The notes beneath the pieces are model-generated. The model did not search any database. It had not been told where the DNA came from and saw only the letters and a list, made by a program, of their open reading frames with translations. From IMG/VR virus record IMGVR_UViG_3300007734_000473, positions 1 to 22,014 of that record: a stretch of 22,014 nt of DNA. The stretch is one strand, 5' to 3'. This DNA comes from a virus. Positions within the stretch are counted from its first letter, which is position 1. The number at the start of each line of letters is the position of its first letter. Positions 2,105-20,816 of this stretch are shown piece by piece. The position numbers and the translations under genes are program-made.

Positions 2105-2236
2105 TCGGGATTAGTAACCCCGACTTCAGAGAGGGAGTCAGTTATGCAATTCAGTATTTTTTCCGGTGAGAACAGGGCTTACGGCCTACCCCTTTCTATG
2201 GTTGTATGCCTGTCGGGTTACTACCGACTCTCACCG
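2105..2236 (+). promoter_or_regulatory. Structured 5' leader: two hairpins with complementary loops plus an enclosing stem
   Basis: Hairpin 1: TCGGG (2105-2109) pairs with CCCGA (2119-2123), with loop ATTAGTAAC. Hairpin 2: GTCGG (2212-2216) pairs with CCGAC (2224-2228), with loop GTTACTA (2217-2223). The hairpin 2 loop is an exact complement of TAGTAAC in loop 1 (2112-2118). In addition, 2112-2124 can pair as a whole with 2212-2223 (12 bp, one bulged C), which would exclude both hairpins. An 8-bp stem CGGTGAGA/TCTCACCG (2164-2171 with 2229-2236) encloses hairpin 2 and ends two bases before the ribosome site AAAGGA of the DUF1376 gene. The pairs are seen in the sequence; a regulatory role is inferred. 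I do not recognise a known riboswitch. Confidence 0.45.
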
Positions 2237-2239
2237 TAA
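2144..2239 (+). CDS. Possible 31-residue leader peptide
   Basis: An ATG six bases after GGGAG (2133-2137) opens 31 codons beginning MQFSIFSGENRAYGL and ending SGYYRLSP, with the stop TAA at 2237-2239. The stop touches the AAAGGA ribosome site of the next gene, so translation of this peptide could control or feed the DUF1376 gene. Ribosomes reading it would melt the hairpins at 2164-2236. The peptide matches nothing I recognise and may simply be open by chance. Confidence 0.3.
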   Translation: MQFSIFSGENRAYGLPLSMVVCLSGYYRLSP

Positions 2240-2250
2240 AGGATATTGAT

Positions 2251-3006
2251 ATGCACTATTATAAATTTAACATTGCAGACTATCGGAAGGATACGGCCCA
2301 CCTAACTCCGATCGAGCATTACATCTATCGCAGCTTGATAGACTGGTACTACCTAGACGAGTTACCAATACCGAAAGAAACCGAGTCGGTTATTCGCCGC
2401 TTGTCGCTCGATAACCACTCGCTTGGGTTATTGCAGAATGTCCTACATGACTTCTTCAAACTTACGGAAACTGGATACATCCATAAACGCATTGATGTAG
2501 AAATTGCCGAATATCACGGCATGATTAAGGCAAATACTGCGAATGGGAAGAAAGGTGGCAGACCTCCAAAGCCAGCACCCAAGCGGGATAAAACCGAGCC
2601 GCTTAAATCCGTTAAGCGAGATGAAAGCGAAATTAACCCTAACTATAAACCACTAACTACAAACCAAGAACCATTAACCACTATAGAGAGTCTGCGCGGT
2701 TCGCGCTTATCCATCCCCCGGATTCATGATGAATGGGTGAACTGGGCGATACTAGAAAGACCAGAACTAACCGCAGCTAAAGTCCATTCCATATACGATC
2801 AATTCTACGACTACTGGAAGGCTCAACCCGGAAGCAAAGGGATTAAACTCGACTGGTTTGCTACTTGGCGTAATTGGGTAAGGCGTGATAAGTCTTTCGG
2901 TCGAGTAGAAAGGCTGTCTATTGCAGATCAGAATCGGGCGGTGGTAGATGCTTTCAATTTAAAACTAGACCAACAAGAAGAAGGGGCTATATATGAACAC
3001 GAGTGA
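2251..3006 (+). CDS. DUF1376 phage replication protein (DnaT/initiator-like C-terminus)
   Basis: A 251-residue protein starting at the ATG at 2251, which has AAAGGA seven bases upstream. An ATG at 2206 in the same frame lacks a ribosome site and lies inside the leader structure. Residues 1-90 form the DUF1376 (YdaU-like) domain: MHYYKFNIADYRKDTAHLTP, then RSLIDWYYLDELPIP. A basic, low-complexity linker follows (GKKGGRPPKPAPKRD). The C-terminal region FYDYWKAQPGSKGIK-DWFATWRNWVRR resembles the DnaT/initiator module found in phage replication proteins. Known: DUF1376 proteins sit in phage replication modules. Inferred: origin binding or primosome assembly together with the next gene, which overlaps it by 14 nt. 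Confidence 0.8.
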   Translation: MHYYKFNIADYRKDTAHLTPIEHYIYRSLIDWYYLDELPIPKETESVIRRLSLDNHSLGLLQNVLHDFFKLTETGYIHKRIDVEIAEYHGMIKANTANGKKGGRPPKPAPKRDKTEPLKSVKRDESEINPNYKPLTTNQEPLTTIESLRGSRLSIPRIHDEWVNWAILERPELTAAKVHSIYDQFYDYWKAQPGSKGIKLDWFATWRNWVRRDKSFGRVERLSIADQNRAVVDAFNLKLDQQEEGAIYEHE

Positions 3007-3957: not shown

Positions 3958-3968
3958 CGGAGGGTCAG

Positions 3969-4739
3969 TTGAATGAGTTGGCTTTATTCGCGGGTGCTGG
4001 TGGAGGAATACTTGGAGGACAATTGCTTGGATGGCGAACCGTCTGTGCAGTCGAATGGGAGCAGTACCCCGCAAGCGTACTGTGCGCCAGACAAAATGAC
4101 GGCCTTCTCCCGCACTTCCCGATTTGGGATGACGTTCAAACCTTTGCCGGAAAGCCTTGGAGAGGAATTGTTGACGTTATATCGGGAGGATTTCCGTGCC
4201 AAGACATTAGCTGCGCCGGAAAAGGAGCTGGAATCAACGGAGAAAAAAGTGGAATGTGGAAGGAATTCGCAAGAATTATTAGCGAGGTACGACCCCAGTA
4301 CGTCTTTGTGGAGAACAGCCCAATGCTCACTTCTCGTGGACTTGGAACAGTGCTTGGAGACTTGGCCTCGATGGGGTTCGATGCGGAATGGGGCGTGTTA
4401 TCAGCAGCCGATGTTGGCGCAAATCACAGGCGAGACAGAATCTGGATTATTGCCGGACAACGAGACTTTCTTCCACACGCCGAACACGACAGGCTTGGAC
4501 GGGGGGAGCAAATGGCCCACTCCAACAGCGCACAATGCGAAAGAAACCAACGCTCCATCAGAGAAGAACAGAAACACTCCGACTTTGGCGGCTCAAGCTG
4601 GTGGTCAACTGAACCCAACGTGGGTAGAGTGGCTAATGGGGTGGCCGCTAGGGTGGACAGACTTAAGGCCATTGGGAATGGACAAGTCCCTTTGTGTGCA
4701 GCAACAGCCTTTAAACTACTTAAAGAGAGATTGAAATGA
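3969..4739 (+). CDS. DNA cytosine-5 methyltransferase
   Basis: A 256-residue protein starting at TTG 3969, four bases after GGAGGG, and holding all core C5-MTase motifs in order. Motif I (SAM) is LALFAGAGGG at residues 4-13. Motif IV is GGFPCQDIS with the catalytic Cys77. Motif VI is VENSP (114-118). Motif VIII is RRDRIWI (154-160). The IX/X region is WWSTEPNVGRVANGV and RLKAIGNGQVP (231-241). The target-recognition stretch between VIII and IX is short. It transfers methyl from SAM to cytosine C5, most plausibly to protect phage DNA from host restriction. It ends in an ATGA overlap with the next gene. TTG is required because the nearest ATG (3973) is in another frame, and that frame is also open for the whole length (see the next entry). 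Confidence 0.93.
   Translation: MNELALFAGAGGGILGGQLLGWRTVCAVEWEQYPASVLCARQNDGLLPHFPIWDDVQTFAGKPWRGIVDVISGGFPCQDISCAGKGAGINGEKSGMWKEFARIISEVRPQYVFVENSPMLTSRGLGTVLGDLASMGFDAEWGVLSAADVGANHRRDRIWIIAGQRDFLPHAEHDRLGRGEQMAHSNSAQCERNQRSIREEQKHSDFGGSSWWSTEPNVGRVANGVAARVDRLKAIGNGQVPLCAATAFKLLKERLK
3973..4734 (+). CDS. Second full-length frame inside the methyltransferase gene (possible overlapping gene)
   Basis: In the frame one base on, an ATG at 3973 (eight bases after the same GGAGGG) opens 253 codons and stops at 4734, five bases before the methyltransferase stop. Random sequence would give about 12 stops over this length. The product is Trp- and Pro-rich, with stretches ARYDPSTSLWRTAQCSL (104-120), WPRWGSMRNG (131-140), WPTPTA (181-186) and LNPTWVEWLMGWPLGWTDL (213-231). 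From memory these resemble an uncharacterised phage/bacterial family often named 'DNA methyltransferase' or hypothetical next to C5-MTases. It could be a genuine overprinted gene, or a shadow kept open by strong conservation of the MTase frame. I cannot decide between these; the MTase is certain and this one is not. Confidence 0.35.
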   Translation: MSWLYSRVLVEEYLEDNCLDGEPSVQSNGSSTPQAYCAPDKMTAFSRTSRFGMTFKPLPESLGEELLTLYREDFRAKTLAAPEKELESTEKKVECGRNSQELLARYDPSTSLWRTAQCSLLVDLEQCLETWPRWGSMRNGACYQQPMLAQITGETESGLLPDNETFFHTPNTTGLDGGSKWPTPTAHNAKETNAPSEKNRNTPTLAAQAGGQLNPTWVEWLMGWPLGWTDLRPLGMDKSLCVQQQPLNYLKRD

Positions 4740-5068
4740 CTGACACTATCAACCCATTCAAAGCCTTAGACTTCATCAGAGATCACGCCCAGCTTTACGC
4801 TCAGGCTAAGGCTAATTTGCTGTACCTGACAGAGTATCGTAAGACTAAGAAAGCACTGCTTATGATCGAGTCAGATGCAAAGACCGAAAGTGGCAAAGAA
4901 AGTTACGCCTATGCACATGATGAATACATCGAACATCTAAAAGCCCTAGCAATGGCCCTACAAGAGTCTGAGAGGCTGCGATGGCTCATGGTAGGGGCAG
5001 AGGCTAAGATAGAGGTCTGGAGGTCACTGGAAGCGTCTGCACGACTTGAAATTAAATCGACATCATAG
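4736..5068 (+). CDS. Conserved phage protein of unknown function
   Basis: A 110-residue, largely helical and charged protein starting in an ATGA overlap with the methyltransferase stop. The pattern DFIRDHAQLYAQAKANLLYL, then YRKTKKALLM, AYAHDEYIEHLKAL and AEAKIEVWRSLEA recalls a widespread small phage family of early genes. No enzymatic motif is visible; helical hairpins or a coiled coil are likely. Its stop TAG merges into the AGGAGG ribosome site of the next small gene. Confidence 0.7.
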   Translation: MTDTINPFKALDFIRDHAQLYAQAKANLLYLTEYRKTKKALLMIESDAKTESGKESYAYAHDEYIEHLKALAMALQESERLRWLMVGAEAKIEVWRSLEASARLEIKSTS

Positions 5069-5898: not shown

Positions 5899-6264
5899 AT
5901 GACAGAAATGCTAATGTGGTTAACGATGACAGTATGGTTCGAGGCTCGTGGAGAGCCTGAGCATTGTCAAATAAAGGTAGCGCAGGTCGTATTAAACAGG
6001 ATGACAGACGGAGATATTAAGAAAGTTATTTTAGCTCCATACCAGTTTTCTTGGGTTCCTGAGAAGCTAAACAACGGTGTATTGAAGCCAGAACATAGAC
6101 CTAACAAAGAATCGGCAGCATGGTTAAAAGCAGAAGAGTCTGCTAGAACTGCGCTATACTCAGACGGTACATTTTTAGCAACGCATTTCCACGCTATAAC
6201 AGTTAACCCTAAGTGGGGTAGACCGTTCTATAAGACCTGTGGGAATCACCACTTCTACTTGTGA
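5899..6264 (+). CDS. SleB-like cell-wall hydrolase
   Basis: A 121-residue protein with an ideal AGGAGG five bases before the ATG. The catalytic-type start MTVWFEARGEP (Glu15 in ARGE) is the hallmark of the Hydrolase_2/SleB lytic transglycosylase-like family. It is followed by KVAQVVLNRM, YQFSWVPE and the terminal ATHFHAITVNPKWGRPF...HHFYL. It cleaves peptidoglycan glycan strands. There is no signal peptide; the first hydrophobic residues are part of the fold, so export would need a holin or other route. It lies outside the main lysis cassette, which is on the opposite strand and encodes a different hydrolase (M15). Confidence 0.87.
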   Translation: MTEMLMWLTMTVWFEARGEPEHCQIKVAQVVLNRMTDGDIKKVILAPYQFSWVPEKLNNGVLKPEHRPNKESAAWLKAEESARTALYSDGTFLATHFHAITVNPKWGRPFYKTCGNHHFYL

Positions 6265-8615: not shown

Positions 8616-9224
8616 TTACTGGACAGACGTTACACAAGAGTAGCTTGCATCTGGCATGGCGGTAGTAAAGTTAATACCATAATCACCAGTACCATTATCA
8701 GTAATACTACTCACATTCCCACTAGCACGAATAGCAACTGTACCAGTACCATTGAAGTTCACCCAAGCACGACATCCGTATGCAGTGGCAACAGAACCGT
8801 AACCAGAGTTGAATAGCAAGTTACCGCTGGCGTCAATACGCATACGTTCTGTGTCGTTGGTGCCAAAGGTCAAAGGATATGCTTTTGTCGTGCCAATAGT
8901 GGCTGCATAAGGAGCATTACCCCCACCACCCCAAAAACTCCCGCTTGAACCAATAACCCCAAACAAAAGGTTGCCTGTTGTATTTTGAATAAGCCCGTAT
9001 GAATAGCCAGTTGTAGCCCCGCTATTTTGAAAAAATTGAGAGTTATTTGTATTGCCAATATCTAATTTACTTGCAGGACTAGCAGTACCAATACCTACAT
9101 TACCACTTGATACTGCCAAGTTTGTTGCACCCGTAACACTCAGTGTTGTTGCTATAGTCTCACCGGCAGTATTTACTACACCCGGAGTAGTGAGACCAAG
9201 ACTTCCATCCAAAATTAGAGCCAT
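8616..9224 (-). CDS. Tail fibre protein (truncated by an ochre codon)
   Basis: A 202-residue protein with AAAGGA before ATG 9224. The N-terminus MALILDGSLGLTTPGVVNTA and the block VSSGNVGIGTASPASKLDI are typical phage-fibre shaft and head-domain joints. The segment NDTERMRIDASGNLLFNSG is a common fibre motif preceding a C-terminal receptor or trimerisation domain. The natural C-terminus appears to lie at 8466 (see the entry at 8466-8615). The start overlaps the stop of the GIY-YIG gene by 10 nt. An 11-codon stub with a similar start lies on the far side of that gene. Confidence 0.78.
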   Translation of the reverse strand: MALILDGSLGLTTPGVVNTAGETIATTLSVTGATNLAVSSGNVGIGTASPASKLDIGNTNNSQFFQNSGATTGYSYGLIQNTTGNLLFGVIGSSGSFWGGGGNAPYAATIGTTKAYPLTFGTNDTERMRIDASGNLLFNSGYGSVATAYGCRAWVNFNGTGTVAIRASGNVSSITDNGTGDYGINFTTAMPDASYSCVTSVQ

Positions 9225-9898
9225 GACGTTTCCTTTATAAATCTACAATTATCAAAATGCCACCTGTTCCCAGCACCTTTGCCATTGCCATGCTTGCTGC
9301 AATAAGGACATACCCAAGATTCTTTTATAGCCAATTCTCTCATTCTTTGTACAGTTTCTGCGCTATTTTTAAATCCTTTTTTGCTAGATGGCTTCCCTAG
9401 TTTTACCAGCCTCATTTGCAATAAGGATTTTGCAGAATGCTTCTTGCCTTTCATATGAGATGACTGCCCCTTATGGGCATCAGACATACGCTGTCTATAT
9501 TCAGGATTCTCCCAAAGCTTGGTCACATTATTCTTAATGCTTTCCCTAGCTTCAGCAGACCAAGGAATGCCTTTGTTCCAAGCAGGGACACCTTTAGTAT
9601 GACCCTTCTTTGCCCGTGGCGGATATCCTCCACCAGCCACTAAATTCCAACCAATCCCATCTGCTGATCTTAGCTTCTTCTCAATGTCTAAACAGTAATC
9701 TTTCCTACCAATTACTATCTTCTCTTTTACTAGGTTATCCCAACCGTACTTCTCAATGGCAAAGTTGAGATGTCTATTCCCTGATCTCTTAAAGTGCTGA
9801 ACCCATCTTTTCTCAGCAGACTTTGATATTCCTACATAGCCTTGAGTAAATATATCCGTATGATCTAAACAGTGAATCCAGTAAATGCTATGCTGCAT
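9215..9898 (-). CDS. GIY-YIG homing endonuclease with NUMOD3 repeats
   Basis: A 227-residue protein. The GIY-YIG nuclease domain occupies about 1-90: IYWI (5-8), GYVGIS (20-25) and Arg31. This is followed by Asn/Gly/Lys-rich DNA-binding repeats of NUMOD3 type (WNKGIPWSAEARESI; MKGKKHSAKSLLQM). A C-terminal Cys/His finger follows (CPYCSKHGNGKGAGNRWHFD, then NC). These are free-standing mobile endonucleases. The ATG shares bases with the stop of an 11-codon stub (TAATG at 9900-9896), and the stop overlaps the tail-fibre ATG, so it sits at the 5' end of a fibre gene. Codon use and local composition are more A-rich than the neighbouring fibres. Confidence 0.88.
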   Translation of the reverse strand: MQHSIYWIHCLDHTDIFTQGYVGISKSAEKRWVQHFKRSGNRHLNFAIEKYGWDNLVKEKIVIGRKDYCLDIEKKLRSADGIGWNLVAGGGYPPRAKKGHTKGVPAWNKGIPWSAEARESIKNNVTKLWENPEYRQRMSDAHKGQSSHMKGKKHSAKSLLQMRLVKLGKPSSKKGFKNSAETVQRMRELAIKESWVCPYCSKHGNGKGAGNRWHFDNCRFIKETSWL

Positions 9899-18890: not shown

Positions 18891-19287
18891 ACTTGCCTCC
18901 TAAAAATTTACATTTATCTTTCAACAGCGTAAAAAATATCATATCACCGTTACTTCTCGTAATTCTAGCCTCTTCAGTAAATCCCATGTTCTTTACCAGA
19001 TTAATGCTTTTATCATTATCTGCAATGACTGGAGCTATTATCTTATCTACATTACACACTCTAAACGGGTAATCAAATATCGCCCGTAGAAACGTCTTAT
19101 TAACTCTGCCAGCAATTGCTATATGGCAGGTAATCGTGGTGTCCATGAAGCTCTCGTAGATCACCCCTGCAACTACTTGTCCTTCTCGTTCCAGCCCTAT
19201 AGCTGTAGCATTGTAATGATACGATCCTGTGGTCTGTTGCGCTACCCATGCACCAACAGAATCGCCTTGTACTATATGCCAGCCCAT
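18883..19287 (-). CDS. GNAT-type acetyltransferase
   Basis: A 134-residue protein. The beta-strand YNATAIGLEREGQVVAGVIY leads to the acetyl-CoA region and IIAPVIADNDKSINLVKNMG-FTEEA, the motif-A/B ending (N-x-S-x-x-L-x-x-x-x-GF) of GNAT enzymes. The Q/R-x-x-G-x-G/A loop is degenerate, as often in phage homologues. It overlaps the gp10-like gene by 16 nt and the ejection gene by 8 nt. The substrate is unknown; a host or virion protein is possible. GNAT genes in this position are common in phages. Confidence 0.75.
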   Translation of the reverse strand: MGWHIVQGDSVGAWVAQQTTGSYHYNATAIGLEREGQVVAGVIYESFMDTTITCHIAIAGRVNKTFLRAIFDYPFRVCNVDKIIAPVIADNDKSINLVKNMGFTEEARITRSNGDMIFFTLLKDKCKFLGGKYD

Positions 19288-20816
19288 CCAGTTTGATACA
19301 CTACGTCAGTTGCCGCCCATTCGAGTTGCAAGGTCTGTGATGCGCTTTTAAGGTGTATACCACCGCAATACCCAATTCCCGTAATCCCTTGAAAGTTATT
19401 AGTAATCATCAGTCCTTGTCCCCATGATGACGCATCCCATGTCCCTATATCCCATAGCCCATAGGAACTAGGAGAATAAGACAAGGCAGATGTAGGGTCA
19501 GATACGTCGTAATCGATATTCATTGAGACTAGGACAGAAGGTAGCCCGTCTGTAAAAATAGATGGTCTAGCTCTAGTAAAGTATTTCTTTACACCACGCT
19601 GCTCAAAGTAGTTAAACGCTTGCAGCACGTTAGTATTAATGTCTGTACCGTTATCTGCATAGGTTGTGTCCCAAGCCCTGCCGACAACGCCATTGCCGCC
19701 AAAGTAAGGATTATCTTCAAAATCCTCCCAGCAGTTGGCTTCCCAGCCTTGAAACTTGCACCAAGACTTTGTAATCGTATTCATTACATACTGCTCTTGA
19801 TTGTTCCCTTCATCTACAGGCACATTTACCCATACAGCGTTATTCTTGGCTGAGTAATGTATCTGCCAGCCAAAGTTGTCTGCATAGAGCGTAGAGGCCG
19901 TTGTAATCGCTCCCTGTATCTTGTTACTCAAAGCCACACGAGGATCGAGCCTAGAGCTTTGTAGTGATGCTGCGAGGGGTATTAATCCATCGTATGTAAT
20001 GATTAGAATGTCACCGCCGTACTTCATGAAGCAGCGATCACCAATCGGAGAGCCTAGCTTCCATACGCCAACCAATGCCCAAGTAGCAGAGCTTGCTGGG
20101 TCTGTACCTGAGTACACAATGCACTCGCCATTGCTTGTAATAAATACTAGGTTGTCATCGACCCCGTACCCAGCGTCAATCGTCCAAGTAGCTACGTCTA
20201 CAATGTAACCGCCAAACTTAGCAATAGAGCTTAGATCGAGAGCCTGTGCTGCACCACCAACTGCATTGGTCGGCAAGTACCAAGCCTTTAATGTATCTTT
20301 TTGACTGAACCAAACTCTATTTTTGAAAAGGGTTATATTGTTTAATGTTGTAGTCGTAACGCCTGTTATGGCTATAGTCGATATAGCAGTAATAGAAGCC
20401 CATGTAGTGCCATCAAATAACAGTGGAGCGTCTACACCATTGACTAGATATAGATAGCTACCGCCGCCAGTCGTGACATTGATGAATTCCCATCTAGCAT
20501 TTGTCAGACCCGTCTTTACAGCAGCGCCTACTGGCCCAGCAGAAGTAACATCGTATATTTTAGTCTGTGCAATAGCGTATAGCTCCTCACCCGTACCAGT
20601 TGAGTAGTTCATTAAAGTCTCAACCTGACCAGTTATTCCTGTAGCGTGGTTAGAGTACCCGCCGCGTAGAACTACGTTTGAATAGGATGGAAAGAAGTTG
20701 ACTAGCTGTACAGCATCAGTCTGTTCCATGTTCGCAATAGAATCACGAGCATTCCAACCACCTACCGGAGCAGGTATAGAAGCGACTTGAGCAGCGGTTT
20801 TCTGTGCTGGGAACAT
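19272..20816 (-). CDS. P22 gp10-like packaged-DNA stabilisation / tail hub protein
   Basis: A 514-residue protein, near the size of P22 gp10 (472). The N-terminus PAPVGGWNARDSIANMEQTD, the segment AVQLVNFFPSYSNVVLRGGY and repeated beta-strand units such as SYLYLVNGVDAPLLFDGTTW, LFKNRVWFSQKDTLKAWYLP and NLVFITSNGECIVYSGTDP are typical of this beta-propeller family. The protein closes the portal-tail channel and carries the receptor-binding parts. It starts in a TAATG overlap with the tail adaptor gene, the arrangement expected for P22-type tails. Confidence 0.78.
   Translation of the reverse strand: MFPAQKTAAQVASIPAPVGGWNARDSIANMEQTDAVQLVNFFPSYSNVVLRGGYSNHATGITGQVETLMNYSTGTGEELYAIAQTKIYDVTSAGPVGAAVKTGLTNARWEFINVTTGGGSYLYLVNGVDAPLLFDGTTWASITAISTIAITGVTTTTLNNITLFKNRVWFSQKDTLKAWYLPTNAVGGAAQALDLSSIAKFGGYIVDVATWTIDAGYGVDDNLVFITSNGECIVYSGTDPASSATWALVGVWKLGSPIGDRCFMKYGGDILIITYDGLIPLAASLQSSRLDPRVALSNKIQGAITTASTLYADNFGWQIHYSAKNNAVWVNVPVDEGNNQEQYVMNTITKSWCKFQGWEANCWEDFEDNPYFGGNGVVGRAWDTTYADNGTDINTNVLQAFNYFEQRGVKKYFTRARPSIFTDGLPSVLVSMNIDYDVSDPTSALSYSPSSYGLWDIGTWDASSWGQGLMITNNFQGITGIGYCGGIHLKSASQTLQLEWAATDVVYQTGWAGI

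Follow-up and report, generated by a model that had tools for sequence, protein, structure and literature searches.

The window analysed here is the whole stretch of 22,014 nucleotides (positions 1 to 22,014) of the IMG/VR virus record IMGVR_UViG_3300007734_000473. It contains two long open frames that overlap on the same strand, frame A with a TTG start and frame B, read in the +1 frame, with an ATG start. As the initial annotation had described, their products have 256 and 253 residues, and the frames start 4 bases apart, downstream of AACGGAGGGTCAGTTGAATGAG, and end 5 bases apart. The locus is composed as follows.

3959..3964, + strand: GGAGGG, presumed ribosome-binding site common to A and B (read from the sequence)
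3969..4739, + strand: frame A, C5-cytosine DNA methyltransferase, putative large subunit (TTG start, 256 aa)
3973..4734, + strand: frame B, putative small subunit of the PHROG 1008 family, in the +1 frame (ATG start, 253 aa)
3973..4443, + strand: B residues about 1-157, overlapping motifs I-VIII of A, the probably overprinted half (A-dominant substitutions; fourfold sites suppressed)
4444..4611, + strand: variable region separating motifs VIII and IX, for the most part read in B (synonymous fractions; profile match to one-piece relatives)
4609..4665, + strand: putative motif IX LNPTWVEWLMGWPLGWTDL in frame B; the reading of frame A there is EPNVGRVANGVAARVDRL
4659..4730, + strand: motif X region RLKAIGNGQVPLCAATAFKLL in frame A (A-dominant substitutions)
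4736..5068, + strand: next gene, 110 aa, whose ATG overlaps the stop of A (ATGA)

The GGAGGG ends 4 bases before the TTG of A and 8 bases before the ATG of B, and a Shine-Dalgarno-like tetramer was present at most 18 nt from the ATG of B in 190 of 248 related loci. The 110-aa gene gave no family match in Pfam or PHROG searches. Elsewhere in the window are genes for an HNH endonuclease (508-1008, - strand), a single-strand annealing protein (1205-1702, - strand), a DUF1376 primosomal-type protein (2206-3006, + strand), a cell wall hydrolase (5899-6264, + strand), a homing endonuclease (9215-9898, - strand) and an amidase for lysis (19272-20816, - strand).

Frame A matched the Pfam profile PF00145 with E=1.7e-32, covering only positions 4-195 of the 324 in the profile, and phrog_363 with 4.7e-69. 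The match to M.HhaI and M.HaeIII was confined to residues 1-166 of A. Motifs I-VIII of the C5-methyltransferases were found, with the catalytic motifs GGFPCQDIS (motif IV, PCQ) and VENSP (motif VI, ENV-like), and motif X was read as RLKAIGNGQVP near the C-terminus. By these motifs, A is a C5-cytosine methyltransferase. The motifs IX and X do not occur together in this chain, since X is there without IX and the site of motif IX is read in B. The canonical one-piece enzymes, for example that of Streptococcus phage P0094, have motifs I-VIII as in the window and carry motif IX (LTPRECWRLQGFP) and motif X in the same frame.

Pfam and NCBIfam searches with B found no family, and a PDB profile search gave no matches. 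B belongs to PHROG 1008 (3.5e-26), which is labelled 'DNA methyltransferase' and also holds the relatives of B (up to 1e-74). This PHROG pools proteins overlapped in the +1 frame, downstream split genes and the C-terminal parts of one-piece enzymes. The initial annotation had likened the product to a widespread, uncharacterised family usually encoded near C5-methyltransferases. The family is widespread, but it already bears a methyltransferase label, and among the related loci classified by layout there was no B without a methyltransferase frame and hence no stand-alone gene.

In B, we read a motif IX (LNPTWVEWLMGWPLGW) that has no counterpart in A. Canonical one-piece phage enzymes end in LTPRECWRLQGFPDWAF...QAGNSV, as seen in phage P0094, and the stretch LNPTWVEWLMGWPLGWT of B was aligned by eye with the first part (LTPRECWRLQGFPDWAF) of this ending, which is motif IX. 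In the one-piece relatives L239, L243-L247 and L267, a single frame runs through motifs I-VIII, LPTPxA repeats, a LNPRFAEWMMGWPLDW-like sequence and motif X. The three that were tested (L244, L239 and L267) matched phrog_363 and phrog_1008 in one ORF, L244 with 1.3e-49 to phrog_1008. In a profile comparison, residues 158-231 of B aligned to the C-terminal part of the one-piece relatives with 98% probability and E=2e-14. Sequence searches of Pfam and PDB with A, B and the one-piece relatives gave no motif-IX match; the assignment of motif IX to B comes from the in-frame relatives, the position and the alignment by eye. AlphaFold modelled B poorly (pLDDT 59.5), with motif IX and its surroundings as the exception, and its model of the one-piece L244 was confident only for the catalytic domain and the C-terminus. 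Foldseek with the L244 model matched C5-methyltransferases, and motif IX was not read at the residue level.

These results suggest that residues about 158-231 of B are old methyltransferase sequence, the variable region plus motif IX, in a new frame. The variable region corresponds to B residues about 158-213, including WPTPTA, and is probably the target-recognition region, located in B. Residues about 1-157 have no relative known outside the overlap and are probably overprinted. The proposal of the initial annotation that the family arose by overprinting of methyltransferase genes fits this N-terminal part but not the segment from about 158 to 231.

B has no internal stop, whereas the other same-strand frame has 13 at the window locus. 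The 12 or so stops initially expected by chance assume random codons. When A was shuffled synonymously, with its protein and codon usage kept, the mean was 5.7 stops in the B frame, and a frame without stops was still rare (0.03% of the shuffles). Canonical one-piece enzymes, too, have a +1 frame that is open for about 140-150 codons across motifs IV-VIII. The openness of B is therefore partly passive, so that its length alone is the weaker evidence and the comparison between loci is decisive.

For this comparison, 124 distinct IMG/VR loci with both frames were used, 49 of them retrieved with A alone. Each of these 49 loci had an open B at the same place; their +2 frame averages 18 stops. The first codon of B was ATG in 123 of 123 IMG/VR loci. 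The start of A is less conserved than that of B, with ATG, GTG or TTG at this place or further upstream. In 8 of the 124 loci the tblastn span passes a stop of B; where the full B was listed, this stop was its own end in an unconserved tail. L093 was considered as a homologue with stops in B and rejected, as the stops lie past the early end of its B, after GWTDLED. Close homologues with stops in the second frame, which according to the initial annotation would speak against B, were not found for the conserved part of B.

The second residue of A provides the start codon of B when it is an Asn encoded by AAT. Among 248 distinct loci, AAT was used in 241 of 241 cases with Asn at this residue, compared to a 42% share of AAT among the Asn codons elsewhere in those genes. 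In GC-rich genes, it was used in 36 of 36 cases and for 33% of the Asn codons elsewhere. Synonymous change in A was suppressed. At 60-75% amino acid identity, the divergence at fourfold sites of A was 0.27-0.31 versus 0.50-0.60 in the controls, which were other ORFs on the same contigs and not matched one-piece methyltransferases. The fourfold sites of A over B residues 1-157 were still suppressed (0.20-0.42 versus 0.50-0.60), and the third-position differences agree with the suppression. In every region, the identity to the B of the window exceeded that of a synonymous-shuffle null that ignores shared ancestry. In the overlapped layout the +1 frame over motifs IV-VIII had 0.04 stops versus 1.48 expected, and none in 302 of 314 loci. 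The numbers were 1.6 versus 2.5 expected in the one-piece layout and 1.1 versus 1.6 expected in the simple-split layout. Judged by these comparisons, B is a real gene under selection, and its start codon is selected too.

The dominant frame was followed along the gene by the share of changes that are synonymous in A or in B among codons differing by one base. In motifs I-III the share was 0.86 in A and 0.21 in B, and in motifs IV-VIII it was 0.77 and 0.21, respectively. In the variable region it was 0.16 in A and 0.55 in B, and in the motif-IX segment 0.26 and 0.69. In motif X, the values were 0.80 in A and 0.14 in B. The wobble base of B was the most variable position exactly in the variable and motif-IX segments. 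On these substitution patterns, the dominant frame changes along the gene in the order A-B-A. Because the pattern is B-dominant there, EPNVGRVANGVAARVDRL of A is largely a shadow of LNPTWVEWLMGWPLGWTDL of B. The N-terminal half of B is largely carried by A, with a constraint of its own in addition.

An open second frame might arise by accident from the methyltransferase motifs, without any B product, which was the alternative given in the initial annotation. The 140-150 open codons over motifs IV-VIII in the canonical one-piece enzymes and the differences in these motifs, which are mostly synonymous in A, are consistent with such a passive shadow. However, it does not account for the selected ATG, the halved fourfold divergence of A, the B-dominant evolution of the variable and motif-IX segment, the stops that reappear in layouts not needing B and the absence of motif IX from A. 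We rejected this explanation and regard it as extremely improbable.

The switch of dominance, which follows exactly the order A-B-A, would also be expected from two programmed frameshifts that lead the ribosome from A (motifs I-VIII) to the +1 frame B (variable region and motif IX) and back to A (motif X), giving one polypeptide. Such a polypeptide would need neither an open B over motifs I-VIII nor an open A through the B-dominant segment nor the ATG of B. In addition, the first switch falls in variable codons that show no evident common slippery site, and we consider the explanation improbable. B might instead be an independent overprinted protein with a function of its own unrelated to methylation. 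Its N-terminal half is conserved beyond the needs of A and has no relatives elsewhere, and in some loci A is broken while B is kept. Nevertheless, the best-conserved part of B has its homologue in the C-terminal part of one-piece C5-methyltransferases, A is without motif IX, and B was always accompanied by a methyltransferase frame in the classified loci. An unrelated function of B is thus highly unlikely.

The locus very probably encodes one C5-cytosine methyltransferase as two polypeptides in the frames 0 and +1, of the M.EcoHK31I type. The small subunit of M.EcoHK31I, reportedly described by Lee and colleagues in 1995, is read from an alternative frame within the gene of the large subunit, with a beta chain of about 176 aa inside an alpha chain of 309 aa. 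The small subunit of M.EaeI likewise lies in an alternative frame within its large-subunit gene. The B of the window, at +1 inside A, corresponds in this to the alternative-frame small subunit of M.EcoHK31I. The large subunit of M.EcoHK31I has motifs I-VIII and X and the predicted target-recognition domain, whereas the small subunit has motif IX (PMC3404938). By this described layout, the window resembles M.EcoHK31I (YGGCCR), with motif IX in the small chain and motifs I-VIII and X in the large one. In contrast to M.EcoHK31I, the two frames of the window span practically the same DNA (253 of 256 codons), their starts lie 4 bases apart, and the variable region is apparently read in the small-subunit frame. 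The M.AquI-type split also makes one enzyme from two chains, and actinophage relatives have a split into motifs I-VIII and variable region-IX-X. Unlike this type, the window keeps motif X in A and not in the small subunit, and its two frames overlap completely. Searches of the literature for a family of overlapping methyltransferases turned up only mentions of M.EcoHK31I.

In the proposed enzyme, A would form the large catalytic domain with motifs I-VIII and X. From B would come motif IX and, most likely, the part of the small domain that recognizes the target, and the overprinted N-terminal half of B may help it to bind to A. With a single ribosome site and two starts, TTG for A and ATG for B, the choice of the start could set the ratio of the subunits. 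Neither chain would methylate DNA alone, but A and B together would methylate the phage DNA, probably against host restriction. The union of A and B in a single enzyme is inferred, as are the chain that recognizes the target and the purpose of the methylation. Even where it is not used, the +1 frame tends to have few stops over motifs IV-VIII; it may thus have been an easy frame for the overlap, which might explain why it is always +1. If the proposal is true, these genes are among the most widespread and the best supported cases of two same-strand genes that overlap over their full length, in prokaryotes as well as in their viruses, and the overlap has a purpose, holding two halves of one enzyme in one stretch of DNA. 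For many phage genes now listed as complete C5-methyltransferases, the product may then be only the large subunit, so that tests of activity or specificity with the single protein would fail or mislead.

Among the relatives, three layouts were found: the overlapped one, the one-piece enzyme in a single frame, and the segment as a separate downstream +1 gene. The third is seen in the actinophages Mori (6/5), Peaches (77/76) and Sebastisaurus (34/35), where a gene with motifs I-VIII is followed by a +1 gene with the variable region, IX and X. Both genes of such simple-split relatives carry the annotation DNA methylase. The overlapped layout is widespread in phages, prophages and plasmids, including an archaeal plasmid. 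It was found in phages and plasmids of Salmonella, Vibrio, Pseudomonas, Klebsiella, Acinetobacter, Leptospira, Microcystis, Nostoc, Bacteroides and Paenibacillus and in mycobacteriophages; the cultured Vibrio phage vB_VviC_ZQ26 is one example. It was also found in 79 of 80 bacterial-genome loci retrieved with B, and of 295 Enterobacteriaceae genomes 19 had a match, mostly in this layout; since most loci were retrieved using B, this spread shows breadth, not frequency. The frame shift was almost always +1, the few exceptions being broken or frameshifted loci. Phage records gave 1312 matches to A at E<=1e-5 and 125 to B at E<=1e-3, and the distant A matches that were opened were explained by canonical one-piece enzymes.

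A tree of A required about 6 layout changes, with one-piece and split forms in two separate places. As it is unrooted with many weak branches, we claim no direction for the evolution of the layouts. It is conceivable, though slightly doubtful, that full overlap is normal, and perhaps old, in a large clade of methyltransferases from phages, prophages and plasmids, that in evolution the segment moves between frames and that the N-terminal half of B has gained a function of its own. Since one-piece, split and overlapped relatives coexist, it is possible to follow stepwise how an overlapping gene originates.

Six bacterial loci (L276, L293, L296, L307, L308 and L310) have a single nonsense codon in A and a fully open B, which may reflect a separate role of B or plain decay of A. 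In the E. coli prophage copy (L348), which has a pseudogene annotation, both frames are interrupted. In two contigs from different samples (L248 and L249, 2662-3429), about 90 codons of A are followed by B in the same ORF; the apparent indel after GGFPCQDISVAGGG is a natural A-B fusion or an error. In Pseudomonas phage phPA-G (L163, 2501-3229), B is annotated as a hypothetical protein and A is missing from the annotation. Nested +1 ORFs are annotated as DNA methyltransferase in Paenibacillus phage Tadhana (L176, gp54/gp55), where it is a true B, and in Streptococcus phage P0094 (L415, P0094_42/43). P0094_43 does not include the motif-IX part and resembles a passive shadow of a one-piece enzyme. 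In Mycobacterium phage Jinglebell (L165, 2326-3031), the minus-strand hypothetical genes 75 and 76 lie over a frame-disrupted plus-strand methyltransferase. The Enterobacteriaceae loci L351-L365 encode highly diverged methyltransferases of the MTAYYNEIDP type with 312-397 aa, and their +1 ORFs of about 160-320 codons end in (S/G)GQLNPxxSRWLMGLPPEW-like motifs.
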